This document shows, one piece after another, positions 2,708-40,073 of a stretch of 40,256 nucleotides of DNA; positions within the stretch are counted from its first letter, which is position 1, and the number at the start of each line of letters is the position of its first letter. The stretch lies in assembly GCA_903904855.1 (NCBI GenBank), contig CAIVEH010000026.1, positions 1 to 40,256 of the forward strand, written 5' to 3'. The position numbers and the translations under genes were made by a program. The notes below the pieces were generated by a model. It was not told the origin of the DNA, did no database searches, and worked only from the letters and a program-made list of their open reading frames with translations. This DNA comes from an uncultured Bacteroidota bacterium (GTDB lineage Bacteria; Bacteroidota; Bacteroidia; Chitinophagales; Chitinophagaceae).

Positions 2708-3830
2708 GCAATATCTTGCCTCCCGGCTTGAAGAAAGAAAAGTGGCCGGCAATTTAAGAAAGCTCAGTACACACAGGGCAACTGTTGATTTTTATTCCAA
2801 CGACTATCTGGGTTTTGTAACTAGTGGGATACTGGCTGATGAACTGCAGAGATCATCGCTGAATATTAAACCGGCGACAGGCTCTACCGGTTCCCGTTTA
2901 TTATCAGGCAATACTACTCTGGCCGAAAATCTGGAAAAAAACATTGCGGCATTTCACAAAGCCGAAGCTGCTCTGCTGTTCAATTCAGGCTATGATGCCA
3001 ATGTTGGTTTACTGTCATGCATTTCCAGCAGGCATACTACAATTCTATCCGATGAACTGTGCCATGCCAGTCTGATTGATGGTATAAGGCTGAGCCAGTG
3101 CAGCCGGAAATATAAATTTGCACACAATAACCTGGAAGAACTGGAATCACAATTAAAAAAGCACATTAATGATGGGCCTGTAATAGTAGTTGCAGAATCC
3201 GTTTATTCCATGGATGGCGATATGGCTCCTCTGAAAGAAATGGCAGATTTATGCATTAGCCATGGCGCTCAGCTTATTGTGGATGAAGCTCATGCCACCG
3301 GGCTATTCGGAGACAAAGGCGAAGGACTGGTATGTGCATCCGGGTTGCAGGATAAAGTGTTTGCAAGGATAAATACATTCGGCAAAGCTCTGGGATGTCA
3401 TGGAGCAGTCGTTCTGGGCAGCAATCTTTTACAGCATTATCTTGTCAATTTTGCAAGGACGTTTATCTATACCACAGCACTTCCGGAACACTCTTTGCTT
3501 GCCATAGAGAGCGCTTACCGGTATATGAACAGCAATAACTTTACAAACCAGCCATTACACGATTTAATTGCCTTCTTCAGAAATGCCATTAAGGAAAGCA
3601 GAATGAATGGATGGACCGACAGTACCAGCCCCATACAGGCACTGATTGCAGGTGATAACATCCGGTGCAAACAACTTGCCATAAAGCTACAGGAAGCCGG
3701 ATTACAGGTTAATGCGATCCTACACCCTACAGTACCGGCAGGTATGGAGCGGCTAAGGGTTTGCCTGCACGCATTCAACACAAAAGAGGAAGTGGCAAGA
3801 CTTTTCCAAGTACTTGCTACTGAATATTAA
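2694..3830 (+). CDS. bioF: 8-amino-7-oxononanoate synthase
   Basis: A PLP enzyme of the alpha-oxoamine synthase family that condenses pimeloyl thioester with L-alanine to give KAPA. It has 378 residues, near the usual length. Visible landmarks are the substrate/cofactor segment GSTGSRLLSG, the PLP-pyridine aspartate motif VDEAHATG, and the Schiff-base lysine in FGKALGCHGA (Lys231). The ATG lies inside the end of bioB with a 14-base overlap. The gene ends 2 nt before the stop of the oppositely oriented adenylate cyclase, leaving no room for a terminator. No bioC, bioH or other pimeloyl-making gene is in the window. Confidence 0.96.
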   Translation: MNPVEQYLASRLEERKVAGNLRKLSTHRATVDFYSNDYLGFVTSGILADELQRSSLNIKPATGSTGSRLLSGNTTLAENLEKNIAAFHKAEAALLFNSGYDANVGLLSCISSRHTTILSDELCHASLIDGIRLSQCSRKYKFAHNNLEELESQLKKHINDGPVIVVAESVYSMDGDMAPLKEMADLCISHGAQLIVDEAHATGLFGDKGEGLVCASGLQDKVFARINTFGKALGCHGAVVLGSNLLQHYLVNFARTFIYTTALPEHSLLAIESAYRYMNSNNFTNQPLHDLIAFFRNAIKESRMNGWTDSTSPIQALIAGDNIRCKQLAIKLQEAGLQVNAILHPTVPAGMERLRVCLHAFNTKEEVARLFQVLATEY

Positions 3831-7810: not shown

Positions 7811-8980
7811 ATGAAGCGTTTAGCGATATTGGGGTCAACAGGATCGGTTGGCACGCAGGCATTAGAAGTGGTGGCTGCGCATCCTGATCTGTTTGAAGTG
7901 GAGGTGCTGAGCGCGCATAGTAATGCAACCCTGCTTATAGAGCAGGCAAGGAAGTTTAAACCCAATGCGGTTGTAGTAACCGATGAAACAAAATATAAAG
8001 AGGTAAAGGATGCTCTGCTTATGCTACCCATAAAGGTGTTTGCAGGTCAGCAGGCTTTGTGCGATGTGGTTCGGTGGGAAAGTGTAGATACCGTACTTGG
8101 AGCAATATTAGGCTTTGCTGGTCTGCAGAGCGTACTGGCGGCAATAGAAGCCGGTAAGCGCATAGCGCTTGCCAATAAAGAAACCCTTGTAGTAGCCGGC
8201 GAGCTGGTAATGCAGAAGGCTATTGAAAACAAAGCGTTGATAATACCGGTCGATAGTGAACACTCTGCAATTTTTCAGTGCCTGGTGGGCGAGGATATGG
8301 ATACGGTGGAGAAAATGATCCTTACTGCTTCAGGAGGGCCTTTCCTTGGCCGCAAACCCAATTACCTGGTGAATGTAAAGGCCAGTCATGCCCTGCAGCA
8401 CCCAAACTGGAGCATGGGCGCCAAAATAAGTATCGACAGCGCTACACTAATGAACAAAGGGCTGGAGATAATTGAGGCAAAATGGCTATTCGGGCTGCAG
8501 AACGACCAGATTGATGTGGTGATCCACTCGCAATCAGTGATTCACTCCATGGTGCAGTTTACAGATGGTTCTATCAAAGCGCAGATGGGCCTGCCCGATA
8601 TGAAACTACCTATACAATATGCACTTGCTTTTCCGCAGCGTATCCATAATAACTACAAGCGTCTTGATTTTAAAGATTTTCCGAAACTAACATTTGAGCC
8701 TGCCGATTATAAAACTTTCCGTAATCTTGCCATCGCAAAAGAGGTGTTGTACAAGGGTGGTAATGCGGCATGTGTTATGAATGCGGCAAATGAAATGGTG
8801 GTACATGCTTTTTTGCAGAATAAAGTAGGCTTCCTGGAGATGAGCGATATGATAGAAAAGACACTGGAGCAGGTGCCATTTATTGAGCATCCCGGCCTGG
8901 ACGATTATAAAGAGAGCGATGCCGAGGCAAGAGTTTTTGCAACAGAGTTTATTAAGAAAAGCCAGTTGTCTATTTATTAG
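7811..8980 (+). CDS. dxr: 1-deoxy-D-xylulose 5-phosphate reductoisomerase
   Basis: Catalyses the second step of the MEP isoprenoid pathway, making MEP from DXP with NADPH and a divalent metal. It has 389 residues, the normal length. The N-terminal nucleotide-binding motif LAILGSTGSVGTQAL, the metal and substrate loop VDSEHSAIFQCL, TASGGPF, and the conserved NKGLEIIEAKWLF block are all present. The ATG at 7811 is the natural start because the nucleotide-binding strand begins at once. rseP follows in the same direction after 160 bp that contain two heptad-repeat blocks. Co-occurrence of dxr and rseP is common in bacteria. Confidence 0.97.
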   Translation: MKRLAILGSTGSVGTQALEVVAAHPDLFEVEVLSAHSNATLLIEQARKFKPNAVVVTDETKYKEVKDALLMLPIKVFAGQQALCDVVRWESVDTVLGAILGFAGLQSVLAAIEAGKRIALANKETLVVAGELVMQKAIENKALIIPVDSEHSAIFQCLVGEDMDTVEKMILTASGGPFLGRKPNYLVNVKASHALQHPNWSMGAKISIDSATLMNKGLEIIEAKWLFGLQNDQIDVVIHSQSVIHSMVQFTDGSIKAQMGLPDMKLPIQYALAFPQRIHNNYKRLDFKDFPKLTFEPADYKTFRNLAIAKEVLYKGGNAACVMNAANEMVVHAFLQNKVGFLEMSDMIEKTLEQVPFIEHPGLDDYKESDAEARVFATEFIKKSQLSIY

Positions 8981-21162: not shown

Positions 21163-21795
21163 CTAATTTGGGCACTTCTGGGAAAGTACGGGCGCCAGAT
21201 TTCCCATAAAAACCTTGCCTTTACGAATTGAAATTTCTCCCCGCTCGTGCATGTGGCGCATGGCACGAATTACGGTCTCTACCCTCAGACATGTCATATT
21301 GGCTATCTGCTGGCGGGTGAGTTTTATTTTACCGCATTCGGTGCATACGTTATGGTTGTTTGCCTTAAGGTAGGCAATGAGTGATTTGATGCGTTCTTCA
21401 GGTTCATTATGCAGCAACTCTGTAAGAATAAAGAATTTGAATCTGAGCCGCTGAGCGAGTAGTCTGGAGAATGAAAAATGTATTTCGGGGTGATCCTGCA
21501 GTAGCTGATGAAAAGTAGACTGGTGCAGTTTTATTACCAGTGAATCCTCATCGGCAATGGCAGTGGCAGCATAAGGAGCACCATCAAACAGAGGTAATTC
21601 ACCAAAACATTCACCAGGCTCAACCAACAACTGAAGATATTCTTTGCCTTCATTGTTGAAATTGGCCCACCTTATCTTACCGCTTACCAACTGATAGTAG
21701 AAATTGCATCTGTTGCCTTCAAAGAAGATGACTTCGCCAGCTGCGACTTTCTTATATGTAGCGCCAAGTGCAAGCAAGTAAGCAATATCTACCAT
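21163..21795 (-). CDS. Crp/Fnr-family transcription regulator
   Basis: A 210-residue regulator with an N-terminal cyclic-nucleotide-binding-like barrel (about 12-115), a long dimerisation helix (about 117-145) and a winged helix (LTRQQIANMTCLRVETVIRAM, 159-179). The recognition helix carries Glu173 and Arg177 in VETVIR, as in FNR-type ETxxR. In the phosphate-binding cassette (GELPLFDGAPYAATA) the Arg-Ser pair that holds cAMP in CRP is replaced by Tyr-Ala, so cAMP binding is doubtful. A CTEC motif (Cys151 and Cys154) sits between the dimer helix and the HTH; Cys30, 63, 169 and 208 are also present. I chose the ATG at 21795 over an upstream in-frame TTG (21804). It diverges from the nos operon, suggesting it controls that operon. 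Confidence 0.9.
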   Translation of the reverse strand: MVDIAYLLALGATYKKVAAGEVIFFEGNRCNFYYQLVSGKIRWANFNNEGKEYLQLLVEPGECFGELPLFDGAPYAATAIADEDSLVIKLHQSTFHQLLQDHPEIHFSFSRLLAQRLRFKFFILTELLHNEPEERIKSLIAYLKANNHNVCTECGKIKLTRQQIANMTCLRVETVIRAMRHMHERGEISIRKGKVFMGNLAPVLSQKCPN

Positions 21796-21870: not shown

Positions 21871-21886
21871 TATGATTAAAATCATA
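21871..21886. promoter_or_regulatory. Candidate Crp/Fnr operator, site A
   Basis: TATGATTAAAATCATA has perfect 7-bp arms, read as ATGA-N6-TCAT, the NTGA-N6-TCAN geometry of Crp/Fnr sites. It lies 75 bp upstream of the regulator start and about 185 bp upstream of the nos cytochrome start. Confidence 0.55.
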
Positions 21887-21994
21887 TCAACACATCGCAG
21901 AAGATAAAAATGTCCTTATTAATTTAATAATCAGGACCTTATAGTAGTAATATTGGATAGAATATGTCTCGAGAAAAAATTATTTTTCTTCATT

Positions 21995-22010
21995 TATGAT
22001 TCTACGCATA
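21995..22010. promoter_or_regulatory. Candidate Crp/Fnr operator, site B (nos operon)
   Basis: TATGATTCTACGCATA shares TATG-N8-CATA with site A and is very similar to site C upstream of ric. It lies 61 bp before the nos cytochrome ATG. Confidence 0.55.
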
Positions 22011-22019
22011 ATTGACCCA

Positions 22020-22050
22020 TTGGGGATGGAGTAATCTTGCTTTATAATTG
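22020..22050 (+). promoter_or_regulatory. Weak candidate promoter of the nos operon
   Basis: A TTG at 22020-22022 and TATAATTG at 22043-22050 (one mismatch to TAnnTTTG) are 20 bp apart, matching Bacteroidota -33/-7 spacing. Operator site B lies just upstream, as expected for an activated promoter. Confidence 0.35.
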
Positions 22051-22071
22051 TTAAACTAACAAATTGAAAAT

Positions 22072-22548
22072 ATGAAAAAAATATTGCTAATACCTGTTAT
22101 CTGTATGATACTTGCCTCGTGTGGTGGTAACAGTTCTGATTCAAAAAAAAATCCGTACACCGCCGATGATTCAAAAAAGGAAGCAAATGGCAATCCTTCT
22201 TACGATCCTAACAGAGGCGAAGGAAAATTTACTCATGTAGATATCCCCGCTGCACTGGATGCAGCCATGGCTGCGAATGGTAAAAAATCATTTGATGTAA
22301 AATGCGGTTCCTGCCACAAGCTGACTGCCGAAAAACTGGTGGGGCCTGGATGGCAGGGCGTAACCCAAAGGCACACACCTGAGTGGATCATGAATTTTGT
22401 TACTAATACTGACGCTATGCTGAACAAAGACCCCAAAGCCCAGGCCCTGCTGGAACTGTGCCTGGTGAGAATGCCTAACCAGAACCTGAGCGATGATGAT
22501 GCCCGTGCATTGTATGAATTTATGAGGCAGAATGATGGCGTAAAGTAA
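22072..22548 (+). CDS. Lipoprotein monohaem cytochrome c of the nos operon
   Basis: A 158-residue exported cytochrome. The signal peptide ends in a lipobox (MILASC, Cys17), so it should be lipid-anchored in the periplasm. A flexible Lys/Asp/Asn-rich linker follows, then a class I cytochrome c domain with haem motif CGSCH (Cys78, Cys81, His82). A methionine in LVRMPNQN is the likely second axial ligand. It is the first gene of the nos operon and lies 45 bp before nosZ, so it most likely passes electrons to nitrous oxide reductase. Small cytochromes c are regular members of clade II nos clusters. Confidence 0.92.
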   Translation: MKKILLIPVICMILASCGGNSSDSKKNPYTADDSKKEANGNPSYDPNRGEGKFTHVDIPAALDAAMAANGKKSFDVKCGSCHKLTAEKLVGPGWQGVTQRHTPEWIMNFVTNTDAMLNKDPKAQALLELCLVRMPNQNLSDDDARALYEFMRQNDGVK

Positions 22549-22593
22549 CTCCAACCAATTTCCTAATATATCAATTAACCAAAACAATTATTT

Positions 22594-24579
22594 ATGAGAC
22601 ATCTTAAATATCTTACAGTAGCAGGCGCCATAGCGCTTGTAATCGGCATAAATTCATGCAAACCAAAAAATGCAGAAAGTGCAGTTACCAATGATGCGGC
22701 ATCGAAAGCATATGTGGCTCCAGGGAAGTATGATTTATTTTACAATTTTGTATCGGGTGGATTCAGCGGGCAATTGAGCGTATATGGCTTGCCAAGTGGC
22801 AGGTTGTTGCGAGTGATACCTGTATTCTCGGTTGACCCTGAAAAAGGTTATGGCTATAGTGAAGAAACCAAACCTATGCTGATGACATCCCACGGCTCGG
22901 TGCCTTGGGACGACCTGCATCATACCGAACTGTCGCAGACCAATGGAGAGATAGATGGAAGATGGGTATTCGGGAATGCTAACAATACACCCCGCGTGGC
23001 ACGAATTGATCTTACCACTTTCAGAACTGCGGAAATAATAGAACTGCCCAACAGCGGTGGCAATCATAGCTCACCGTTCATTACCGAGAATACAGAGTAT
23101 GTGGTAGCAGGAACCCGTTTCAGTGTTCCGCCCGATTATGAAAACGGAGATGTCCCCATCAATACTTATAAAAAGAATTTCAAAGGCCATATCAGTTTTA
23201 TAAGCGTAGGGAAGGAAGGCCAGATGGATATAGCATTCCAGATAGAATGCCCAGGTGTCAATTTCGATCTGTCTCATGCGGGAAAAGACAAATCTCATGG
23301 TTGGTTCTTCTTTAGTTGTTACAACACTGAGCAGGCTAACACGCTGCTTGAAGTAAACGCATCGCAACGCGACAAGGATTTCATCATGGCGCTCAACTGG
23401 AAGAAAGCAGAAGAATACCTGAAAGCAGGTAAGGGTAAGAAAATAGCAACCAAGTATGCACATAATGTGTATAATGAGAAAACACACACTGCTACATCAG
23501 AAATTAAAACAGAAGTTACCGTACTGAATGCCATGGAGCTGAAAGACATCTGTTATTTCATTCCTTGTCCAAAATCTCCCCATGGTTGTGATGTGGATCC
23601 AACAGGCGAATATATAGTAGGTAGCGGCAAACTGGCTGCGCTGATACCTGTATTCAGTTTCGATAAAATACAGAAAGCAATTGCAGATAAGGCGTTTGAT
23701 GGCGATTTCCAGGGCATACCAGTTATAAAATATGAAGCTGCACTTTATGGCGAAGTGAAGAAACCTGGCTTAGGCCCTTTGCATACCGAATTTGATGGTA
23801 ATGGATTTGCTTATACTTCCATGTTCGTATCCAGTGAGGTAGTTAAATGGAATATTAAAGAACTTAAAGTAGTGGATAGGGTACCAACGTTCTATTCAGT
23901 GGGCCACTTATGTGTGCCAGGTGGAGACAGCCGCAAGCCCAATGCCAAATACATGATAGCCTATAACAAAATTACCAAAGACAGGTATCTGCCTACCGGT
24001 CCGGAGCTGGCACAGAGCGCACAACTCTTTGACATTACTGGTGAAAAAATGCAGATGATACTTGACTTCCCGACTATAGGCGAACCGCACTATGCCCAGG
24101 CAGTATCAGCAGACCTGATAAAGAACAACTCAGTTAAGTTTTATAAAATTGAGGAGAATGCAAATGCTTTTGTTGCAAAGGGTGAAGGTGAAGCTAAAGT
24201 TGTGCGCAATGGAAACAAGGTGGATGTTTATATGACGGCGATCCGGTCGCACTTTGTTCCAGATAATATTGAAGGTATAAGAATGGGCGATGAAGTATAT
24301 GTGCATGTTACAAATCTGGAGCAGGACTGGGATGTGCCGCATGGTTTCGCAATAAAGGGTGCATTAGCATCAGAACTGCTGATCATGCCGGGTGAAACAC
24401 AAACTATTAAATGGACACCTGATCGTGTAGGTATTTTCCCGATGTACTGTACTGACTTCTGCAGTGCACTGCACCAGGAAATGTCAGGCTACATAAGAGT
24501 GTCACCAACCGGTAGTAATGTGCCATTGCTGTTCAGTACAGGTAAAAATATGCCTGTAGAAGAAGCTGCTAAAAAGTAA
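22594..24579 (+). CDS. nosZ: Nitrous oxide reductase, clade II (Sec-exported)
   Basis: Reduces N2O to N2 in the periplasm using the CuZ and CuA copper centres. At 661 residues it is full length. The beta-propeller part contains histidine-rich motifs expected for CuZ (HGSVPWDDLHHTELSQ, SPHGCDVDPTGEY, LGPLHTEFDGNG). The C-terminal cupredoxin domain has the complete CuA motif YCTDFCSALHQEM, with Cys619, Cys623, His627 and Met630. The N-terminus is a Sec-type signal without a twin arginine, which marks clade II (atypical) NosZ. It also ends in INSC, a possible lipobox, so the enzyme may be a lipoprotein. It sits between its cytochrome and NosL. A large hairpin follows the stop codon. Confidence 0.97.
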   Translation: MRHLKYLTVAGAIALVIGINSCKPKNAESAVTNDAASKAYVAPGKYDLFYNFVSGGFSGQLSVYGLPSGRLLRVIPVFSVDPEKGYGYSEETKPMLMTSHGSVPWDDLHHTELSQTNGEIDGRWVFGNANNTPRVARIDLTTFRTAEIIELPNSGGNHSSPFITENTEYVVAGTRFSVPPDYENGDVPINTYKKNFKGHISFISVGKEGQMDIAFQIECPGVNFDLSHAGKDKSHGWFFFSCYNTEQANTLLEVNASQRDKDFIMALNWKKAEEYLKAGKGKKIATKYAHNVYNEKTHTATSEIKTEVTVLNAMELKDICYFIPCPKSPHGCDVDPTGEYIVGSGKLAALIPVFSFDKIQKAIADKAFDGDFQGIPVIKYEAALYGEVKKPGLGPLHTEFDGNGFAYTSMFVSSEVVKWNIKELKVVDRVPTFYSVGHLCVPGGDSRKPNAKYMIAYNKITKDRYLPTGPELAQSAQLFDITGEKMQMILDFPTIGEPHYAQAVSADLIKNNSVKFYKIEENANAFVAKGEGEAKVVRNGNKVDVYMTAIRSHFVPDNIEGIRMGDEVYVHVTNLEQDWDVPHGFAIKGALASELLIMPGETQTIKWTPDRVGIFPMYCTDFCSALHQEMSGYIRVSPTGSNVPLLFSTGKNMPVEEAAKK

Positions 24580-24621
24580 ATAATAAAATACTTGTTACAA
24601 AGTAACCAACTGCTTTTAATA

Positions 24622-24668
24622 GATTCAACTTGCCATTAAGGAATTATCTCCTGGTGGTAAGTTGAATC
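24622..24668 (+). promoter_or_regulatory. Large stem-loop between nosZ and nosL
   Basis: GATTCAACTTGCCA (24622-24635) pairs with TGGTAAGTTGAATC (24655-24668), a 14-bp stem with one G-U pair and a 19-nt loop. No T-tract follows. A role in 3' stabilisation of nosZ mRNA or partial termination before the maturation genes is inferred. Confidence 0.6.
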
Positions 24669-24698
24669 CACGGCGGCATAATTTCAAAAAACGGTTAG

Positions 24699-25712
24699 AT
24701 GCAAAATGATAAATTATTGATCAGTACAAGGGCGATTGTGGCAATTTGCGGTTTCAGCCTAATAGCAGTGATGTTTGTACCCATGTGGCGTATTGACCTT
24801 AATGCACCTCAATATCCTGAGGGCCTGAGTTTAGCAATTCATGCCAATAGAATAAAGGGTAATGTAGATATCATAAACGGACTGAACCACTATATAGGTA
24901 TGAAGACGTTGCATGACAAAGATTTCCCTGAATTTACGATTCTGCCATGGTGTATTGGTTTCTTTATAGGTTTGTTTCTGCTTGTAGCGCTATTGAACAG
25001 GAGAAAATGGTTCTATGCATCCTTCTTTTTGTTTGTTGCCTTTGGTATTATAGCAATGGCAGATTTCTGGCGATGGGAATATAATTATGGGCATAATCTT
25101 GATCCTCATGCAGCAATAATAGTTCCGGGAATGGCTTACCAGCCACCATTAATAGGTTATAAACAATTGCTTAATTTTGCCGCATATTCTATACCAGATA
25201 CAGGGGGATGGATTTTTATAGGCTGCGGGGTATTGCTTATGCCGGGTGTATTTTTTGAATGGCGGAAAAGCAGAAAAGCAAAGAAGATAGGCCTGGTTTC
25301 AGCCTTATTATTATTGCCACTATTTCTATTAAGTAGTTGCAGTACCGGCCCGGAAGCAATTAAAACAGGATCTGATAACTGCGCATTCTGTAAAATGACT
25401 ATTTCAGATCCGAGGTTTGGGGCGGAGATTGTAACACATACCGGTAAAGCCTTTAAGTTTGATGATATTCACTGCATGGTAAGCTATTATGATGCACTTG
25501 ATAAAAACCTAAAAAAAACAGCAACCGTTTATCTTTCCGATTTTTGCGGTAATCATACACTCGTCCCTTCAGACAAATGTATACTGCTGTTAAGTAAAGA
25601 TTTTAAATGCCCTATGGACGGACACATTGCTGCCTTCAGTAGTTCAGATAGTATGGAAAGGATAAGGCAAACCTATCCGGGTGAAAAAACCGAACTGGCA
25701 CTAAACAAATGA
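24699..25712 (+). CDS. nosL: Membrane protein fused to NosL copper chaperone
   Basis: A 337-residue two-part protein. The N-terminal ~200 residues contain four hydrophobic segments (about 10-28, 85-105, 107-125 and 170-188), with a conserved-looking extracytoplasmic stretch GNVDIINGLNHYIGM. After a basic linker (EWRKSRKAKK) comes a fifth hydrophobic segment ending in LLSSC, which looks like a lipobox. The NosL domain follows, with copper-binding motif NCAFCKMTISDPRFGAEI and FDDIHCM. NosL delivers copper for NosZ assembly. To my knowledge the two parts are usually separate genes, so this is likely a fusion; no frameshift is needed to explain it. The stop overlaps nosD as ATGA. Confidence 0.88.
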   Translation: MQNDKLLISTRAIVAICGFSLIAVMFVPMWRIDLNAPQYPEGLSLAIHANRIKGNVDIINGLNHYIGMKTLHDKDFPEFTILPWCIGFFIGLFLLVALLNRRKWFYASFFLFVAFGIIAMADFWRWEYNYGHNLDPHAAIIVPGMAYQPPLIGYKQLLNFAAYSIPDTGGWIFIGCGVLLMPGVFFEWRKSRKAKKIGLVSALLLLPLFLLSSCSTGPEAIKTGSDNCAFCKMTISDPRFGAEIVTHTGKAFKFDDIHCMVSYYDALDKNLKKTATVYLSDFCGNHTLVPSDKCILLLSKDFKCPMDGHIAAFSSSDSMERIRQTYPGEKTELALNK

Positions 25713-26947
25713 AAAAGGTTTCCTGGATATTGTGTTGTATTCTGCTATTTAACGGTATGCTGAAAGGCAAGACTCTAAAGGTGGGTAAAGGTCAGGTGAT
25801 TGCAGATATTACTTCAGGTTTAAAAGAGATATCTGCCGGCGACACTCTTGTAGTTGCACCAGGCATTTATCGTGAAAAAAACCTGGTTATTGATAAATCG
25901 ATAGTAATGACCGGTATCAATCATCCTATACTGGATGGGGAGAATACGTATGAAAATGTTTCTGTAAAAGCTGATTGGGTAACTGTAGATGGGTTTTCAA
26001 TTGTCAACTCTGGTATATCCAGTACAACAGATTATGCCGGCCTCAAAATTTACAACCGGCATAATGTAACCATCAGCAATAATATTCTGAATGATTGCTT
26101 TTTTGGTATTTATGCACAGTATTGCAGGAATTGTATAATCAAAAATAACCGGCTAAGTGCTCACCAGGTACAGGAACAAAGAAGTGGTAACGGTATACAC
26201 TGCTGGAAATGCGATACCATGCAGATAACAGGCAACAACGTTTCCGGGCACAGGGACGGTATCTATTTTGAGTTTGTTACCAATTCCATTATCTGGCGGA
26301 ATTTATCGAGCGGGAATATGCGATACGGGCTTCATTTTATGTTTTCCAACCATGACACCTATGCAGCGAATGTATTTGAAAACAATGGAGCAGGAGTATC
26401 GGTAATGTTCTCCAATCACGTGCATATGTTCCATAATACTTTCAGGGAAAACTGGGGCGATGGTTCGTATGGTTTACTGCTTAAGGAAATTTCAGACAGT
26501 TATATAGATGGCAATATTTTTGAAAGAAACACAATCGGAATTTTTATGGAAGGAGGCAGCCGGATTGAGATGTATAAGAATACTTTCCGGGGAAATGGGT
26601 GGGCGCTAAAAATACAGGCCAGCTGTATGGATATTACACTTAAGAACAACAACTTCATGAGCAATACATTTGATGTAGGTACCAATGGATCACTTGTACT
26701 TAACACTTTCGACTATAACTATTGGGACAAATATGAGGGCTATGACCTCAACAGAGATAAAACAGGAGATGTGCCATACCGGCCCGTAAGTATGTATAGT
26801 ATGATAGTAGAGAAAAACCCACCAGCAATGATGTTATTCCATAGTCTGATAACTACCCTGCTTGACAAGTCGGAAAAAGTAATACCCAGCCTTACTCCTG
26901 AAAACCTGAAAGACAATCATCCATTAATGAAACCCCTTCAGTTATGA
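25709..26947 (+). CDS. nosD: NosD, periplasmic copper-maturation protein
   Basis: A 412-residue protein with a signal peptide (MKKVSWILCCILLFNGMLKG). Right-handed parallel beta-helix repeats of the CASH/NosD type fill most of the chain, visible as recurring strands such as NVTISNNILNDCFFGIYAQYCRNCIIKNNRL and DSYIDGNIFERNTIGIFMEGGSRI. The closing motif FDYNYWDKYEGYDLNRDKTGDVPYRP is typical of NosD. It works with the NosFY ABC transporter in building the CuZ centre of NosZ. Four-base overlaps with nosL and nosF point to tight translational coupling. Confidence 0.95.
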   Translation: MKKVSWILCCILLFNGMLKGKTLKVGKGQVIADITSGLKEISAGDTLVVAPGIYREKNLVIDKSIVMTGINHPILDGENTYENVSVKADWVTVDGFSIVNSGISSTTDYAGLKIYNRHNVTISNNILNDCFFGIYAQYCRNCIIKNNRLSAHQVQEQRSGNGIHCWKCDTMQITGNNVSGHRDGIYFEFVTNSIIWRNLSSGNMRYGLHFMFSNHDTYAANVFENNGAGVSVMFSNHVHMFHNTFRENWGDGSYGLLLKEISDSYIDGNIFERNTIGIFMEGGSRIEMYKNTFRGNGWALKIQASCMDITLKNNNFMSNTFDVGTNGSLVLNTFDYNYWDKYEGYDLNRDKTGDVPYRPVSMYSMIVEKNPPAMMLFHSLITTLLDKSEKVIPSLTPENLKDNHPLMKPLQL

Positions 26948-27654
26948 TTGAAGCTATAAACATCAGCAAAAATTTTGGTAAGCTGAAAGCGCTGAATAAT
27001 ATTTCGATAGCTACCGGAGCAGGTCAGAGTATTGCACTAGTCGGCCCCAATGGCTGCGGAAAGACAACATTTATCAAGTGCATACTGGGCATGGTTGTTC
27101 CCGACTCAGGCACCATAAAACTGAAAAATGAAAGTATTGCAGCAGGTTGGAAATACCGGTCGATGATAGGCTATATGCCGCAGGCCGGCCGGTATCCCGA
27201 CCAGATGAAAATAGGCCAGGTGATAGAAATGCTTAAAGATATAAGACAATCAGCATCATCGCCTGATGATGACCTGATAAAAGCATTTTCGCTGAAGGGA
27301 CTGTATAACAAACGTATGGGTACATTATCTGGAGGTACTCTGCAAAAAGTGAGTGCCTCCATTGCCTTTATGTTTGACCCTGAAGTATTGATACTCGATG
27401 AACCAACTGCAGGCCTGGACCCTGTGGCATCAGAAGCACTGAAAGAAAAGATAATGGCCGAAAAACAAAAGGGTAAACTATTTCTGATAACCTCGCATAT
27501 ACTCAGTGAGCTGGAAGAACTGGCTTCACACATTGTGTATATGCAGGATGGGGTTATCATGCTTTATAAAACAATGGAAGCGCTGAAGGCAGATACCGGA
27601 GAAAACAAATTATCACGTGCCATAGCACAATTAATGACCAAGCCTGCGCAATGA
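26944..27654 (+). CDS. nosF: NosF, ABC transporter ATPase
   Basis: A 236-residue cytoplasmic ATPase that energises the NosDFY maturation system. Walker A is GPNGCGKTT (residues 34-42), the signature is LSGGTLQK, Walker B is VLILDEPTAGLDP, and the switch histidine is in ITSHILSELEEL. The length and order are standard for NosF. It overlaps nosD at its start and nosY at its end by four bases each. Confidence 0.95.
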   Translation: MIEAINISKNFGKLKALNNISIATGAGQSIALVGPNGCGKTTFIKCILGMVVPDSGTIKLKNESIAAGWKYRSMIGYMPQAGRYPDQMKIGQVIEMLKDIRQSASSPDDDLIKAFSLKGLYNKRMGTLSGGTLQKVSASIAFMFDPEVLILDEPTAGLDPVASEALKEKIMAEKQKGKLFLITSHILSELEELASHIVYMQDGVIMLYKTMEALKADTGENKLSRAIAQLMTKPAQ

Positions 27655-28418
27655 TCAAGATTGTAAAATACATACTTCTCGATATTCTGAGAAATAAGAT
27701 CGTAGTGGCTTATACTCTATTTCTTTTTGCCATTACATTCTGTGTGTTCAGCCTTGAAGACAACACTGAAAAGGGATTGCTCACCTTACTGAATCTTATT
27801 CTCTTCATTGTGCCATTGGTGAGTATAATATTCTCCACTATTTATATTTACAACAGCTCAGAGTTTATTGAGTTGCTGGTAAGCCAGCCCATCAGGAGAA
27901 AGAGTATCTGGCTTTCATTATTTACCGGGCTGGCAGGAGCGCTCACCCTGGCTTTTATAATTGGTGCAGGTATACCTTTATTGATTTATGTGAGGTCAGT
28001 AACCGGATTAATGATGATACTGAACGGAATATTGATCTCTGTTATATTTGCTTCACTGGCTATGGTAGCCGCAGTGCGCACAAGAGATAAAGCCAAGGGA
28101 ATAGGCTTTTCAATACTTTTATGGCTTTTCTTTTCGCTTGTATATGATGGGTTTGTATTATTCTTATTGTTCCAGTTTTCAGATTACCCACTCGAAAAGG
28201 CAATGATATTCATAAGCGCACTTAACCCTATCGACCTTGGCCGTATTCTGATATTGCTAAAGATGGATGTATCAGCATTGATGGGGTATACCGGCGCAGT
28301 TTTTAAAGAATTTTATGGAACAGAAAAAGGGTTAATTGTCTCCTTTTCTGCAATGATACTCTGGATACTACTTCCGCTACTTTACTCATTAAGGAAATTT
28401 AACCGAAAAGATTTATAA
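27651..28418 (+). CDS. nosY: NosY, ABC-2-type permease
   Basis: A 255-residue inner-membrane permease with six hydrophobic segments and the ABC-2 feature LLVSQPIRRKSIWLS on the cytoplasmic side. It partners NosF and NosD, and the complex is thought to handle a sulfur or copper species for CuZ assembly. It overlaps nosF by four bases and is followed after 2 bp by the truncated hemoglobin gene, which therefore shares its transcript. Confidence 0.94.
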   Translation: MIKIVKYILLDILRNKIVVAYTLFLFAITFCVFSLEDNTEKGLLTLLNLILFIVPLVSIIFSTIYIYNSSEFIELLVSQPIRRKSIWLSLFTGLAGALTLAFIIGAGIPLLIYVRSVTGLMMILNGILISVIFASLAMVAAVRTRDKAKGIGFSILLWLFFSLVYDGFVLFLLFQFSDYPLEKAMIFISALNPIDLGRILILLKMDVSALMGYTGAVFKEFYGTEKGLIVSFSAMILWILLPLLYSLRKFNRKDL

Positions 28419-28420
28419 CA

Positions 28421-28783
28421 ATGAAAACAGACATTGCGGGACGAAGTGACCTTGAAATTCTGATCAACAGATTCTATGACAAGGTAAGAGTGAATCCTGT
28501 TATCGGCCAATTTTTTGCACATGTAAACTGGGATAAGCACCTTCCGGTTATGTACGATTTCTGGGAGAATACAGTATTCTATACCGGAGGTTATTTGGGC
28601 AATCCATTACAGATCCATCAGGCATTTCATAAGAAACATCCATTAAATGCAGATCATTTCAAGCAGTGGCAGGATTTGTTTTTGTCAACAGTTGATGAAC
28701 TATTTGCGGGAGAGAAAGCTGAGTTGGCAAAGCAGCGAGCCTTGAGCATTTCAACAGTAATGCAGATAAAGACCATTAACTGA
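28421..28783 (+). CDS. Group III truncated hemoglobin
   Basis: A 120-residue globin of the short 2-over-2 fold. Group III features are the early helix RSDLEILINRFYDKVRVNPVIGQFF, FWENTVFYTGGYLGNP in the E region, and HFKQWQDLF with the conserved G-helix tryptophan (Trp83). His70 (or His73) in HQAFHKKHPL is the likely proximal haem ligand. Group III members in other bacteria bind oxygen and NO and have been tied to NO defence. It is the last gene of the nos operon, 2 bp after nosY, followed by a bidirectional terminator. That position suggests NO or oxygen protection of N2O respiration. Confidence 0.92.
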   Translation: MKTDIAGRSDLEILINRFYDKVRVNPVIGQFFAHVNWDKHLPVMYDFWENTVFYTGGYLGNPLQIHQAFHKKHPLNADHFKQWQDLFLSTVDELFAGEKAELAKQRALSISTVMQIKTIN

Positions 28784-28834
28784 TATTTTCTGATACAACA
28801 CATTTCATTCCCCTAATCAAATTGTTGCAAAAAG

Positions 28835-28864
28835 AAGAGGCTGCAATTAATCCTGCAGCCTTTC
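28835..28864. terminator. Bidirectional terminator between hemoglobin and FAS1 genes
   Basis: AGGCTGCA (28838-28845) and TGCAGCCT (28854-28861) form a perfect 8-bp stem that extends with A/T pairs and one bulge. A T-rich tail follows on each strand. It serves two convergent genes. Confidence 0.8.
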
Positions 28865-28884
28865 TTTATAACCAACCATCTTTC

Positions 28885-29451
28885 TTATTTCTTAGGTGGC
28901 AGCAACACTCCATCAATAACGTATATGATGCCATTGGATGCAGGAACAGTACCAATAACGTTAGCAGTTCCGTTGACTATTATCTTTCCATCCTTCTTAG
29001 TGATTGTAATATTATCTCCGTTTACCTGTCCGATTTTTTGCCCATCAACCAGTTGTTCTTCCTTGAATACACCAACAGATACATGGTATTGAAGAATATC
29101 GGCCAACGCTTCTTTTTTATCAGGTTTCAGTAAGCCTTCCAAAGTACCTGCTGGCAATTTATCAAAAGCAGCATTGGTAGGTGCAAAAACTGTAAATGGC
29201 CCGGCATTGCTTAATGCATCAACCAGGCTGGCGGCCTTTACAGCCCCCACCAATGTAGTATGGTCTTTACTGCCCACTGCAACCTGCACAATGTTCTTCG
29301 CTGACAGGTCATCTTTTACTCCTGACTGGCCTGAATTACTGGTAGGTGCTATTTCTGTCTTTGTGGCTTCACCTTGTGCAGGTTCATTGCTATTGCAGCC
29401 TGCCAGCCAAAGGCTTAGGAAGCATAATAATGGTACTGTGATCTTTCTCAT
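28885..29451 (-). CDS. Fasciclin (FAS1) domain lipoprotein
   Basis: A 188-residue exported protein. The signal peptide ends in the lipobox LAGC (Cys19), then a short Ser/Thr/Glu linker and a single FAS1 domain (about 50-186). Its typical blocks are TLVGAVKAASLVDALSNAGPFTVFAPTNAAFDKLPAGTLEGLL, ILQYHVSVG and the closing IYVIDGVLLPP. FAS1 domains mediate adhesion or cell-surface binding; no more specific role can be given. It converges on the nos operon with a shared terminator. Its start faces ric across a 192-bp region holding operator site C, so it may be co-regulated. Confidence 0.93.
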   Translation of the reverse strand: MRKITVPLLCFLSLWLAGCNSNEPAQGEATKTEIAPTSNSGQSGVKDDLSAKNIVQVAVGSKDHTTLVGAVKAASLVDALSNAGPFTVFAPTNAAFDKLPAGTLEGLLKPDKKEALADILQYHVSVGVFKEEQLVDGQKIGQVNGDNITITKKDGKIIVNGTANVIGTVPASNGIIYVIDGVLLPPKK

Positions 29452-29575
29452 AAAATAATTTGAAGTGTTAATAATATTCTATAAAAGTAACAGGTCACTT
29501 TCCCTTCCATTTATGAGCCCAATCATAAACGGCCATTTATTTTCAGAAAGAATGATTTTGTTAATCCTTGCAGAT

Positions 29576-29591
29576 TATGACTCTGCGCATA
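29576..29591. promoter_or_regulatory. Candidate Crp/Fnr operator, site C (ric)
   Basis: TATGACTCTGCGCATA differs from site B at 2 of 16 positions and keeps TATG-N8-CATA. It lies 52 bp upstream of the ric ATG. A one-mismatch -7 element, GAGCTTTG, is at 29613-29620. Confidence 0.55.
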
Positions 29592-29643
29592 TTACAGAGA
29601 TTAAAATCAGCGGAGCTTTGCATCTGAAATAAAACATACGATC

Positions 29644-30384
29644 ATGACGCTTATACAGGAAATAGAAACACAGAATACAATTGGTAAAACAGTTGCCAAT
29701 AACTTCCGGACTGCAGAGGTATTCAGGAAATATGGTATTGACTTTTGCTGCAAAGGCGGCAGAATGCTGGCTGATGTGTGCATGGAAAGGAACCTTGATA
29801 TGGAAGCAATAGAAAAGGAGCTGGATGAGAAAACAGCGGCGGTAACGCCAATTTCAGAGGACTCCTATCAGACGATGGGTTTGGATGCATTGGTTGATCA
29901 TATAATGCTGGTACACCACACATACGTGAGGGAAAGTATACCACCTATGCTAGCTTTTTTGCACAAGGTAAATAAAGTGCATGGTGAGCGCCATCCTGAA
30001 CTGGCAGAAATTTATGACCTGTTTGAAGGCTGCGCCAATGAACTGACCCACCACATGGTGAAGGAAGAGAATATTCTTTTCCCTGCGATAAAGAAAATGG
30101 TGTTGGCTAAGCAAAACGGAACACAAGTAACGCCATTCTTTTTCGGACCACTGGAAAATCCTATAGGCATGATGGAGAACGAGCATACTACTGAAGGAGA
30201 GCGGTTTTTCAGAATAGCTGAATTGACCAACAATTTTACTCCGCCCGATGATGGCTGCACTACATATAAGGTAGCGTTTCAGAAACTGGAAGAGTTTCAG
30301 AATGATTTGTTCACACACATACACCTGGAGAACAACATACTGTTTCCAAAGGCATTACAACTGGAAAAAGAGTTGTTGGGGTAG
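29644..30384 (+). CDS. ric: Iron-sulfur cluster repair di-iron protein (RIC/ScdA/YtfE/DnrN)
   Basis: A 246-residue cytoplasmic protein that helps restore iron-sulfur clusters damaged by NO or oxidants. The N-terminal ScdA domain has the signature YGIDFCCKGGRMLADVC (Cys35 and Cys36). A hemerythrin-like four-helix bundle follows, with iron-binding histidine/glutamate sets in HIMLVHHTYV, HHMVKEENILFP, ENEHTTEG and HIHLENNILFP. It stands just beyond the nos/hemoglobin block and shares an operator-like motif with it, fitting a nitrosative-stress regulon. The cysteine desulfurase gene follows 111 bp later. Confidence 0.95.
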   Translation: MTLIQEIETQNTIGKTVANNFRTAEVFRKYGIDFCCKGGRMLADVCMERNLDMEAIEKELDEKTAAVTPISEDSYQTMGLDALVDHIMLVHHTYVRESIPPMLAFLHKVNKVHGERHPELAEIYDLFEGCANELTHHMVKEENILFPAIKKMVLAKQNGTQVTPFFFGPLENPIGMMENEHTTEGERFFRIAELTNNFTPPDDGCTTYKVAFQKLEEFQNDLFTHIHLENNILFPKALQLEKELLG

Positions 30385-35930: not shown

Positions 35931-38900
35931 TTATTCAACCACCACTTTAACCACATTTCTGCTGTTGGCAGTTCTTGCGGTAAGGAAGTATATGCCAGCC
36001 GGCTGGCTGATATTTATTTCTGTGGCTTTATTAGTTGTGGTGGTGGTTTCAAGAACTTTTTCGCCTACTGTATTAGTAACAATTACCTCTGCCTCCTCAT
36101 CAATTACAGATGACAGGTTAAGGGTAAAAATACCTTTGTTCGGATTTGGTGCAATCATCAGTTCGTTCTGGTTTGAATTGATCATTTGCACACCCACACT
36201 GCTGATGGTAATGGAAATATAATTGCTTACTGCAGTATTGGTACATGCATCTCCGCCGCCCGATACGCAATTGATCACTTCGGTACCTGCCAGACTGCTA
36301 TTTACAATATAAGTATTGTTGGTAGCTCCGGAAACGGCAGTACCATTTACGAACCACTGGTAGTTAGGGTGTGTAGTGCCGACAACAACTGCTGTCAATG
36401 TATCGTTCTGATGTGTTGAAACTATATTGCCCGGTGAAGAGGAGATACTGATAGAGATGTATGAAGGTACGAGTACTGTCATGATAATATTATTACTGAA
36501 TACGGAATCTATTGTGCTGCAGGTAGCGCTGCTCGTAAGCATTGCATAAACAACATCGCCATTTGTAGGAACATCAATATATGCAGGACCGGTAGCTACA
36601 TTAATACCATTCCTGGTCCATCTGTAGAAAGGTGTCGGGCCTCCATATAATGAGTGTGCACTGTAGGTAGCTGCAGCGCCTTCGCACATAGTGCTGCCGG
36701 GAGCCACTGTAATATTAACTGTTGGTGTTTCGGTAGTATTTACAGTCATTGTTATGCTGTTGCTCATAACTGTGGCAGGCAGAGGGCAAACATAATTGCT
36801 GGTGAGCGCACAGGTAACAATATCGCCGTTGGCAGGTACATAACTGAACGGATTACTGTATGAATAAACCGATCCGTTTACATTCCACTGGTAAACAGGC
36901 GCAGTACCTCCGTTTGTTTCAGTTGCAGTGTAGGTAACCGTATTGCCTACGCATACAGTATCTCCATAAATACCGCTTGTAATATGGACAGCAGGTACGA
37001 GGGATGGGTTTACAACCGCGGTGACAGTATCTGAAACAGATGGCGCAGAAATGCAACCAAGGCTACTGCTCAATTTACAGCTAATATGGTCGCCGTTTAC
37101 AGGTGTATAAATAAATGCTGCCCCGCTGCCCAATGCAGTTCCATTAACAGCCCATTGGTATACAGGAGATCCACCTCCGTTAACCGGATTGGCTGTATAA
37201 GTAACCGGTGTAGATGGGCAGGTAGTGAAGCCCGGGCTGGCTGAGAAACTGATGCCTGGTGTCACAATTGGGTCTATACTGATATTTACGGTAACGGTCA
37301 CTGTGCCGCAGCCATTTGTAACGCTGTAATTAATAGTATCCTGTCCTACTACAAGACCGCTGACAAGGCCTGTGCCGGTTATTGAAGCATTGGTATTACT
37401 GGAGCTCCATGATCCTCCAGGAGTTGCATCGCTAAGTGATGTTGAAGAACCAAGGCACACATAAGAAAGGCCACCAATGGCAGCAGGCGATGGCAGAGGA
37501 TTAATGGTAATGGACTTGGTTGCATAAGCAGTACCGCAGGAAGTGGATACTGTGTAGGAGATAATATCGGTACCGGCTGTAACACCTGTTACAGTACCAC
37601 CTGCAAGAGTAGCATTGGCATTGAGGGCGCTCCATGTGCCACCCAGTGTAGCATCGGTAAGTACTGAAGTAGCTCCCTGGCAAACAGTAGCCGAACCGGT
37701 TATTGTGCCTGCTGACGGCACGGATATTACATTGATGGTTGTAGTGGCAGAAACAGATCCGCAACTATTACTAACTGTATAAGAGATAACGGTTACACCT
37801 ACGGTTACACCAGTCACCAAACCTGTGCCGGATACAGTGGCATGGGCATTACTTGCACTCCAGGTGCCACCAGGAGCCACATCTGCCAATGGTAACGTGC
37901 CGGAAAGGCATACATTGTTGAGACCTGTAATAACGCCTGCATCAGGCAAAGGATTTATTGTAACTGTCTTGGTAATATTATTGATACCGCAGGCATTGGA
38001 TAAGGCGTAAGTAATAACATCAGTACCGCCCACCAGGCCAGTTACTGTTCCGCCGGTTACAGAAGTATTGCCTGTGCTTTCGCTCCAGGTTCCTCCCGGA
38101 ACGGGGTTAGTAAGTACGATTGATGAACCCTGGCATACCACTGAAGGCCCGGTAAGTGAAGTTCCTCCGCCGAGAACAGTGATGATATTTACTGTAACCG
38201 AAGCTGTAGCTGTACCGCAAAAATTGGTTACATCATAACTGATGACATCTGAGGTACCAGCAGTAATACCGGTTACTGTTCCTCCAACCACTGTTGCTGT
38301 CCCGGTGCTTTCGCTCCAGGTTCCCCCAGGCGATGCATCGGTAAGAACAATGGAGGATCCGGCACACACATTCGATGGGCCGAGTATAGTGCCAGCATCA
38401 GGAGCTGCAATAACGGTAACATTAATAGTTGCGGTTGACGTGCCGCAAATGTTACTTAACGTGTAACTGATTACATCAGCTCCGGCAATCAATCCATCAA
38501 CCGTTCCACCGGTAACAGAGGTATTACCAGTGCTTTCAGTCCATGTACCTCCTGACGTCAGATCATCGAGTACTATAGATGCACCTACGCAAACTGTTGT
38601 AGTGGACCCTGTTATTGGCAGTACTGCCGGTAGTGGATTTATGGTTACAATAATAGTATCGGTTGTTGTCAGTATACCATCTGATACCTGAACGGTGAAG
38701 CTGTCCATTCCACTATATGTAGGATTAGGCAGATAATACAAACCACTTCTCTGTACACTGCCACCGGTTGTAGCTGCGGTACCTGTAAGACCTACAGTCC
38801 CGTTAGTGGGAGCCCATGCACCGGCACTCCAGGTCAATGTCTGGTTCAGATCAGAATCTGTTACAGCCAGTAAAACTCCCAGGCTATCACCAGTCGCCCC

Positions 38901-40073
38901 CTGGCACATGGAAATTGATTGCCTAGTACCTCCGGTGAAATAAGGTTTGCTGTCGGGTCTTACCACCCGTATCCTGCTATTGTTCTGGTCTGAAATATAA
39001 TAATGGTTAACATCGACAACAACCATAGATGCAGGACCAACCCTGACAGCAGCAGCAGTTGCCAACTGGCCATCGCCAGCAAAACCGCCAAAACCACCTG
39101 CACCAGCGCCTGTACTTATTATACCTGTTGCACTTACGATCCTCACCCTGGCGTTACTGTTATCTGCAATAAATAAATTGCCTGCTGCATCCATTTTTAC
39201 ATCCGCAGGCCTGTTGATCTGGGCAGTGGCTGCAGCACCACCATCTCCTGCGAACCCACCGGTTCCGCTACCTACATAAGTGCTGATAATTCCGGTACTT
39301 ATGGTTACTTTCCTTACCTTATTGTTGCTTCTGTCGGCAATGTAAATATTACCTGCTGCATCTGTACACACCCCTCTTGGGCTGTTTAATTGTGCTGCAG
39401 TTGCAGCTGCCCCATCTCCAGCAGTGCCTGCTGTACCTATACCGGCAACTGTGGAAATAATACCTGTAGACAACACTATTTTGCGTATTTTATTATTATT
39501 CGCATCTGCAATGTATAAGTTTCCCGATCCATCAATAGCCAGGCCCCTTGGCTGATTTAGCTGTGCGGCCGAAGCTGCTGCCCCATCGCCTAAAGAGCCT
39601 CCGGTACCAGTTCCGGCAAATGTGGAAATAATACCAGTAGATGCTGTAACAACCCTTATTTTATTACTGCTGCCATCGCTGATGTATACATTACCGGCAG
39701 CATCGACCGCTACCCCGGCAATGCCTGGTGCACCAAAACCACCAGCTCCGAATTGCACTCCTGTAGCTGTGGCCGGGCTGCCATCACCACCGGTACCTGT
39801 TGTGCCATCTCCTGCCACCAGCGTAATAATGCCAGTAGTCATGTTGATCATTCGCACCCTGTTGTTGCTGTTATCGCAGATATACATATTGCCCGCCGCA
39901 TCAGTATTGAGCATGGCTGGGCCATTTAGACGGGCAGTTGCGCCAGCTCCGCCATCTCCCAAATATCCGGCGGTACCTGTACCTGCATAAGTCTCAATGA
40001 TATTATTCTGTGCACTGGAAGAAAACCCAAATGCCAATAAGATTAAACCTATAAGTAAACCTTTATTTCTCAT
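35931..40073 (-). CDS. Giant secreted NHL-propeller/Ig-like protein with T9SS sorting domain
   Basis: A 1380-residue surface or secreted protein. After the signal peptide (MRNKGLLIGLILLAFGFSSSAQ) come six NHL repeats (about 23-375) of the type GTAGDGAAATAAQLNSPRG-...-NIYIADRSNNKVRKV-STG-IIST, enough for one six-bladed propeller. A linker domain with DSFTVQVSDG (about 385-485) follows, then six Ig-like modules of about 76 residues (about 488-940) with the Cys pair VC...CG. Four PKD-like repeats of about 90 residues carry the YQWxVNG motif (about 941-1300). A Por secretion C-terminal domain (MIAPNPNKGIFTLNL ... PAGIYFLTA) ends the chain. The Ig modules are homologous to those in the protein at 11265-14387. 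Binding to a carbohydrate or protein surface is a guess. Confidence 0.9.
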   Translation of the reverse strand: MRNKGLLIGLILLAFGFSSSAQNNIIETYAGTGTAGYLGDGGAGATARLNGPAMLNTDAAGNMYICDNSNNRVRMINMTTGIITLVAGDGTTGTGGDGSPATATGVQFGAGGFGAPGIAGVAVDAAGNVYISDGSSNKIRVVTASTGIISTFAGTGTGGSLGDGAAASAAQLNQPRGLAIDGSGNLYIADANNNKIRKIVLSTGIISTVAGIGTAGTAGDGAAATAAQLNSPRGVCTDAAGNIYIADRSNNKVRKVTISTGIISTYVGSGTGGFAGDGGAAATAQINRPADVKMDAAGNLFIADNSNARVRIVSATGIISTGAGAGGFGGFAGDGQLATAAAVRVGPASMVVVDVNHYYISDQNNSRIRVVRPDSKPYFTGGTRQSISMCQGATGDSLGVLLAVTDSDLNQTLTWSAGAWAPTNGTVGLTGTAATTGGSVQRSGLYYLPNPTYSGMDSFTVQVSDGILTTTDTIIVTINPLPAVLPITGSTTTVCVGASIVLDDLTSGGTWTESTGNTSVTGGTVDGLIAGADVISYTLSNICGTSTATINVTVIAAPDAGTILGPSNVCAGSSIVLTDASPGGTWSESTGTATVVGGTVTGITAGTSDVISYDVTNFCGTATASVTVNIITVLGGGTSLTGPSVVCQGSSIVLTNPVPGGTWSESTGNTSVTGGTVTGLVGGTDVITYALSNACGINNITKTVTINPLPDAGVITGLNNVCLSGTLPLADVAPGGTWSASNAHATVSGTGLVTGVTVGVTVISYTVSNSCGSVSATTTINVISVPSAGTITGSATVCQGATSVLTDATLGGTWSALNANATLAGGTVTGVTAGTDIISYTVSTSCGTAYATKSITINPLPSPAAIGGLSYVCLGSSTSLSDATPGGSWSSSNTNASITGTGLVSGLVVGQDTINYSVTNGCGTVTVTVNISIDPIVTPGISFSASPGFTTCPSTPVTYTANPVNGGGSPVYQWAVNGTALGSGAAFIYTPVNGDHISCKLSSSLGCISAPSVSDTVTAVVNPSLVPAVHITSGIYGDTVCVGNTVTYTATETNGGTAPVYQWNVNGSVYSYSNPFSYVPANGDIVTCALTSNYVCPLPATVMSNSITMTVNTTETPTVNITVAPGSTMCEGAAATYSAHSLYGGPTPFYRWTRNGINVATGPAYIDVPTNGDVVYAMLTSSATCSTIDSVFSNNIIMTVLVPSYISISISSSPGNIVSTHQNDTLTAVVVGTTHPNYQWFVNGTAVSGATNNTYIVNSSLAGTEVINCVSGGGDACTNTAVSNYISITISSVGVQMINSNQNELMIAPNPNKGIFTLNLSSVIDEEAEVIVTNTVGEKVLETTTTTNKATEINISQPAGIYFLTARTANSRNVVKVVVE

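Follow-up and report, generated by a model that had tools for sequence, protein, structure and literature searches.

The window analysed here is the whole 40,256-nucleotide stretch of contig CAIVEH010000026.1 (GenBank assembly GCA_903904855.1), from an uncultured Bacteroidota bacterium of the family Chitinophagaceae. It contains a nos cluster with a clade II nitrous-oxide reductase gene, a Crp/Fnr regulator gene divergent from this cluster and, on the other side of it, a fasciclin-domain lipoprotein gene and the iron-sulfur cluster repair gene ric. Between the regulator gene and nos, and again between the fasciclin gene and ric, lie copies of a palindrome whose symmetric form, TATGA-N6-TCATA, is almost certainly a real operator, as judged from comparative sequence data. 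The outer pattern TATG-N8-CATA occurred five times in the window against 1.45 expected, a number reached in none of 100 shuffles. The five copies were sites A to D and one at 36753-36768, inside the open reading frame (ORF) 35931-40073.

21871..21886, minus strand: site A, full palindrome TATGATTAAAATCATA; centre 83.5 bp before the ATG of the regulator gene
21995..22010, plus strand: site B, asymmetric TATGATTCTACGCATA; predicted operator of the nos promoter; centre 69.5 bp before the ATG of the cytochrome gene
29512..29527, minus strand: site D, full palindrome TATGAGCCCAATCATA; predicted operator of the fasciclin promoter; centre 68.5 bp before the ATG of the fasciclin gene
29576..29591, plus strand: site C, asymmetric TATGACTCTGCGCATA; predicted operator of the ric promoter; centre 60.5 bp before the ATG of ric

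Each of the two intergenic regions (A with B, D with C) contained one full palindrome and one CGCATA-type TATG-N8-CATA site. The sequences of A, B and C were found at the coordinates given in an earlier note on this DNA, which had assigned all three to the ATGA-N6-TCAT type. This description fits A but not B and C, in which the right half is CGCATA; the full palindrome was present only in A and D. The distances of 61 bp from B to the nos cytochrome gene and 52 bp from C to ric, also given there, are correct when measured from the end of the site to the ATG. Site D, which lies 64 bp before site C, had been overlooked.

Three of the sites were followed by a -7 box of the TAnnTTTG type at a common distance, measured from centre to centre:

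22032..22039, plus strand: -7 box for site B, TAATCTTG, one mismatch; 33 bp from B
29482..29489, minus strand: -7 box for site D, TACTTTTA, one mismatch; 34 bp from D
29613..29620, plus strand: -7 box for site C, GAGCTTTG, one mismatch; 33 bp from C

For site A, no TAnnTTTG box was found at 33–34 bp on either side. The distances of 51.5, 40.5 and 29.5 bp proposed previously for the -7 boxes, one helical turn apart, were rejected in view of the common 33–34 bp at B, C and D. Given the usual place of the -7 box, this spacing would put a dimer bound to the site near -41, i.e., in the class II position.

The conservation of the site was evaluated in the 80 best nos loci from a public-genome scan with the NosZ of the window, chosen by NosZ similarity. 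Five of them, in which no usable sequence preceded the cytochrome gene, were dropped, leaving 75 scorable loci. A site matching at least eight of its ten fixed positions, with its centre 50–95 bp before the nos cytochrome gene, was present in all 75; at least nine positions matched in 69 loci and all ten in 40. Mean pairwise identity among the 75 loci was 92% over the ten fixed positions, and 32% both over the following 21 bp and over the preceding 20 bp. In 71 of the 75 loci, the site centre was followed at 33 or 34 bp by a TAnnTTTG-type -7 box with at most one mismatch, compared with a mean of 1.7 and a maximum of 7 loci in 1000 shuffles of the downstream DNA. Such a fixed place of the site centre, near -41, is that of a class II Crp/Fnr promoter.

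Altogether, the 80 loci contained 121 perfect sites, 108 of them intergenic, whereas the best of 29 other letter permutations gave 15. At 20–260 bp behind perfect sites, counted on both sides so that one site may count twice, lay genes for the nos cytochrome (47), fasciclin proteins (25), the regulator (25), ric (8) and others (39). The region scored in these nos loci ran from 160 bp upstream of a gene to 20 bp inside it; a site with at least nine matches was present there for 39 of the 51 fasciclin and 17 of the 29 ric genes. The fasciclin-domain lipoprotein gene is a recurrent nos neighbour with a site of its own. In one relative (L033), the D-like site at 8502 had TACTTTTA 33 bp away, and the C-like site also had a box at 33 bp.

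Since these loci had been picked by NosZ similarity, 149 genomes drawn evenly from the class were examined too, 56 of which had a NosZ over the cut-off. Within 2.7 kb upstream of nosZ, TATGA-N6 was the top palindrome among 1024 five-base half-sites at spacings of 4–8; it was perfect in 17 of the 56 genomes, the window included, and the ACGCATA variant was found in 4, the window among them. The strict form TATGATTNNAATCATA matched at 36 places in 24 of the 149 genomes against 5 for the reversed control, and 31 of these 36 distinct places fell outside coding frames under the ORF rule.

In the organism's own genome, the perfect palindrome occurred 15 times against 14 for the reversed control. The number of sites is thus not raised genome-wide, and it is their location that stands out. 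Six of the 15 lay outside any ORF of at least 60 amino acids (aa), one of them overlapping a gene start, and three of the six flank genes of interest: A (regulator and nos), D (fasciclin and ric) and one on contig C128. The latter lies upstream of a cytochrome c gene and, behind that, a COX1-family gene. This pair may be norC/norB-like; the COX1-family protein is not named by any NCBIfam model. An exact -7 box, TACCTTTG, is located 33 bp from this norC-like site. With the composite motif, defined as TATGA-N6-TCATA plus a -7 box at the fixed distance, the 5.6-Mb genome gave one symmetric match, at the norC-like site, and two matches of the CGCATA form, at B and C, with no control matches. Thus, all three composites precede genes of N-oxide metabolism or repair, if the putative norC label is accepted. 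In the NorB-like protein of the same genome (L112:814-2127), position 187 is Ala, whereas His occupies it in 82% of the aligned NorB-like proteins; the active site of this protein may therefore be unusual. In addition, two sites with nine of ten matches lie 22 bp apart at 2763 and 2785 of L112, upstream of an Rrf2 gene (2982-3458); the second has TAGTATTG at 33 bp, and next come the genes of the Rrf2 regulator and of the unnamed membrane protein described below.

Across 395 genomes of the class, the symmetric composite was found at 237 sites in 123 genomes, compared with 23 for the backwards pattern. In the order, the variant pattern TATGAYTNNACGCATA alone matched in 8 of 99 genomes against 6 reversed-control matches and was uninformative without the -7 box; with the box, there were 7 matches against 3 in the control. 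A total of 92 distinct composite sites were read, of which 83 had a downstream ORF; 82 of the proteins were scanned, one reference occurring twice. The 32 Pfam-scanned proteins behind composites in genomes with the regulator described below included seven cytochromes c, two fasciclin proteins, two cNMP-binding regulators and two metal P-type ATPases, as well as one each of hemerythrin, HPP-domain protein, COX1, beta-eliminating lyase, MobA-like protein, U32 peptidase, HGD-D, 4Fe-4S protein and TonB receptor. The 50 from other genomes formed a wider mix (among the best 25 of 60 families), including cytochromes c, ScdA_N/hemerythrin proteins, histidine kinases and pyruvate:ferredoxin oxidoreductase. 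The motif may thus serve N-oxide genes in this genome and, in others, a wider set that appears to be linked to low oxygen. In seven loci (L117, L118, L283, L330, L343, L344 and L351), hydrophobic proteins of 90–114 aa, alike by eye, were encoded 53–60 bp behind sites; the two that were scanned (L117 and L330) had no NCBIfam match.

The genes around the sites are as follows:

21163..21795, minus strand: Crp/Fnr regulator, 210 aa from the ATG, recognition helix LRVETVIR; candidate reader of the sites
22072..22548, plus strand: cytochrome c, first gene of the nos cluster (PF00034)
22594..24579, plus strand: nosZ, Sec-dependent (clade II) nitrous-oxide reductase (TIGR04246, 922 bits)
24699..25712, plus strand: NosL-domain membrane protein (PF05573)
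25709..26947, plus strand: nosD (TIGR04247)
26944..28418, plus strand: ABC ATPase and permease in the nosF/nosY position (PF00005, PF12679)
28421..28783, plus strand: group III truncated haemoglobin (best PDB match 2ig3, E 9e-6)
28885..29451, minus strand: fasciclin-domain lipoprotein (PF02469)
29644..30384, plus strand: ric, iron-sulfur cluster repair di-iron protein (TIGR03652, 237 bits)

The closest NosZ loci belong to Bacteroidota metagenome-assembled genomes, one of them labelled Flavipsychrobacter stenotrophus, which makes it probable that the host belongs to this group.

The regulator belongs to the Crp/Fnr superfamily, with PF00027 (cNMP_binding, 72 bits) and PF13545 (HTH_Crp_2, 32 bits) both over the cut-off. 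Its predicted structure has the CRP fold (mean predicted local distance difference test score 91.5), and the best Foldseek matches were CRP-type proteins (E 5e-17, 25–26% identity). It is not a CRP, as the helix VETVIR is without the first Arg and the CRP model gave 58 bits against a cut-off of 266. Nor is it an FNR, having a single Cys in the first 45 residues and 37 bits with the Fnr model against a cut-off of 228. An alignment with GlxR placed a Tyr at the position of the Arg that contacts the phosphate of cyclic AMP (cAMP), which makes cAMP an unlikely ligand. The next match to the regulator in its own genome had 26% identity. Within the clade of this regulator (E 1e-25 or better; 41 of the 395 class genomes), the LRVETVIR segment is nearly unchanged from Chitinophagaceae to Flavobacterium loci.

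The symmetric composite was present in 34 of the 41 genomes with this clade compared with 89 of the 354 others (Fisher p 5e-13, relatedness ignored). Of the seven regulator genomes lacking it, three (G239, G040 and G042) have the CGCATA variant at nos. Among the composite sites listed in regulator genomes, 13 of 50 lay within 3 kb of the regulator gene. The regulator gene is divergent from nos in 36 loci, and where enough upstream DNA was available (n=76), VETVIR regulators had a perfect site nearby in 31 cases and one with at least nine matches in 56. Paired sites 21–22 bp apart, i.e., two helical turns, precede the regulator gene in L087, L092, L104 and L108.

The asymmetric form TATG-N6-CGCATA occurred 45 times in the 80 nos loci, and 37 of these occurrences had a -7 box on the CGCATA side, at a distance of 33 or 34 bp. 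Besides nos, it was found before fasciclin genes (5), the gene of an unnamed membrane protein (4) and ric (2); hence, promoters unrelated to one another share it. The regulator tree shows the form concentrated in one nos-divergent clade, several members of which have returned to the symmetric form. CGCATA may be a promoter-proximal half-site of altered affinity or one that contacts the polymerase. The unnamed membrane protein has a heme-copper-oxidase fold, carries no established name and is encoded directly behind the regulator in 51 of 54 nos loci. A sequence search of the PDB with it gave no match, and a profile comparison with NorB-like proteins, in which a weak match paired helices that do not correspond, was set aside. 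One may speculate, though we hold it to be doubtful, that the regulator, this membrane protein, which would sense or consume nitric oxide (NO) at the membrane and set the activity of the regulator, and CGCATA, which would orient the dimer on class II promoters, form a Bacteroidota-specific N-oxide signalling module.

A comparison with known systems shows where the site and its candidate reader stand apart. TGA-N6-TCA is the core of Crp/Fnr sites. FNR, DNR and NnrR share the operator TTGAT-N4-ATCAA; DNR, which senses NO through heme, has the FNR-like half-site TTGAT. The outer base of the conserved site is A, so it is not an operator of this type: its half-site is TATGA where DNR has TTGAT, and it is combined with a Bacteroidota -7 box. 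The regulator resembles FNR in the Val-Glu that opens the recognition helix, and the half-sites share the core TGA followed by T; however, the outer base is A instead of T, the helix is VETVIR instead of the VETISR of Escherichia coli FNR, and there is no N-terminal cysteine cluster. With E. coli CRP and GlxR/MtbCRP it shares the overall fold and the Glu and Arg of the recognition helix, but the first Arg is replaced by Val, the cAMP-phosphate Arg by Tyr, and the outer base is A, not G. The earlier note had explained the outer A by the missing first Arg; this is unsupported, because Val opens the helix of E. coli FNR too and the loss of the Arg is thus not a sufficient reason. The IR end shared by such helices was considered as another source of the outer A: a perfect site accompanied 40 of 122 regulators with an xE[TS]xIR helix versus 4 of 20 others (p=0.31), many of these others sharing loci with FNR-type genes.

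DNR, NnrR, HcpR1 and HcpR2 were described by Rodionov and colleagues, and the motifs given in the accessible part of that paper differ from TATGA-N6-TCATA (PMC1274295). According to the same part, DNR and NnrR of proteobacteria, which regulate denitrification genes, are Crp/Fnr proteins that lack the cysteine motif of FNR, as does the regulator here (PMC1274295). Another member of the family is HcpR2, found in Bacteroides and others and proposed to be a Bacteroidota regulator of nitrosative stress; as presented there, it has the motif GTAACnnnnGTTAC (in most Bacteroides) and Pro at 181, whereas the window has TATGA-N6-TCATA and Glu, so that neither the regulator nor the site is of the HcpR2 kind (PMC1274295). 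Crp/Fnr control of clade II nosZ genes, as proposed here, is known for NssA/B/C of Wolinella and the Nitrosophilus regulators, although the consensus reported in the accessible text is TTGA-N6-TCAA and the phylum is a different one (PMC11539149). In the open-licence literature, without most subscription journals, neither a description of TATGA-N6-TCATA nor a regulator or operator for Bacteroidota clade II nos genes was found.

On these comparative data we consider it very probable that TATGA-N6-TCATA is the operator of the regulator encoded at 21163-21795 and serves class II activation of nos, ric, the fasciclin gene and the norC-like gene. The positions of the sites, their conservation, their spacing to the -7 box and their phylogenetic association with the regulator clade were observed as described above; from them it is inferred that this very regulator binds the sites, that it activates the genes and does not repress them, and that its signal is linked to nitrogen oxides or low oxygen. 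A regulator dimer on B, C or D would be centred 33–34 bp upstream of the TAnnTTTG-type -7 box, near -41, and from there would activate the fasciclin gene as well as nos and ric. The same arrangement of site and box would serve the norC-like gene, which lies on a different contig. Site A, upstream of the regulator gene, would probably provide autoregulation, and B and C would represent a directional form whose promoter-proximal half is CGCATA.

Several observations weigh against this interpretation or narrow it. The 80 nos loci were a sample chosen by similarity. In the even draw, 26 of the 56 NosZ genomes had no site with at least nine matches within ~1.8 kb of nosZ, so that the operator, although widespread, is not found throughout the class. 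In the 1.1 kb closest to nosZ, ATCAT-N4 ranked above TATGA-N6 (13 vs 11). Site D counts as a composite only if the last G of its box may be mismatched. The scan of the genome and its relatives suggested by the earlier note found sites before nos and fasciclin genes in close loci; they were lacking near nos in those 26 genomes and at the NorB-like loci of the order, where 17 of 18 had no perfect site, the exception being that of the organism's own genome; a NorB-domain gene with a site was also seen in another genome (L149). As a target, ric was supported here and in 17 of 29 nos-linked relatives but was rejected for the order as a whole, in which the site was found at 1 of 29 scored ric genes, the window's own (one ric locus, L267, had 8 bp upstream). 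The proposal of an undescribed N-oxide operator read by the adjacent regulator gained strong comparative support from nos (75/75), the box spacing, the composites and the clade association, while its exclusive assignment to an N-oxide regulon did not hold, since the motif also occurs at other genes and in genomes without the regulator clade.

The last point bears on the alternative that survives best, namely that the operator is real but its main reader is another Crp/Fnr protein, FNR-type or a longer Crp of 352–362 aa, the adjacent regulator having a different or overlapping role. The 89 of 354 genomes that carry the composite without the regulator clade agree with it, as do relatives of an FNR-type query in 291 of the 395 class genomes. 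FNR-type regulators, with N-terminal cysteines and a TETAIR-type helix, share the site, 6 of 13 TETAIR regulators having a perfect one upstream. For five FNR-type regulators with three N-terminal cysteines (L121, L124, L125, L129 and L151), a perfect site directly precedes the regulator's own gene; as the motif itself led to these loci, they are a biased sample. The organism's own genome encodes three other Crp/Fnr proteins (22–26% identity, TESLIR or AESLIR helices) that could compete for the sites. However, none of the three has a site with nine matches upstream, and the association of the motif with the clade of the adjacent regulator (34/41 vs 89/354), the divergent arrangement in 36 loci and the sites upstream of 56 of 76 VETVIR regulators make another main reader unlikely.

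Binding by a repressor, or an RNA or DNA feature unrelated to Crp/Fnr, would agree with the lack of a -7 box at 33–34 bp from site A, but is very improbable because the 33–34 bp spacing elsewhere is the geometry of a class II activator, the TGA-N6-TCA core is of the Crp/Fnr type, and the sites co-occur with a Crp/Fnr regulator. Chance palindromes in AT-rich intergenic DNA, to which the near-equal genome-wide counts (15 and 14) might point, are practically dismissed, being refuted at nos by conservation in 75 of 75 loci around an unconserved spacer and by 121 sites against at most 15 for other half-site permutations.

Thus, the preferred reading remains activation of nos by the adjacent regulator through TATGA-N6-TCATA. 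The greenhouse gas N2O can be removed by, among other organisms, Bacteroidota with clade II NosZ. With an operator, a fixed spacing and one candidate regulator gene, the control of the Bacteroidota N2O sink becomes directly testable, and the motif can be used for reading regulons from metagenome-assembled genomes.

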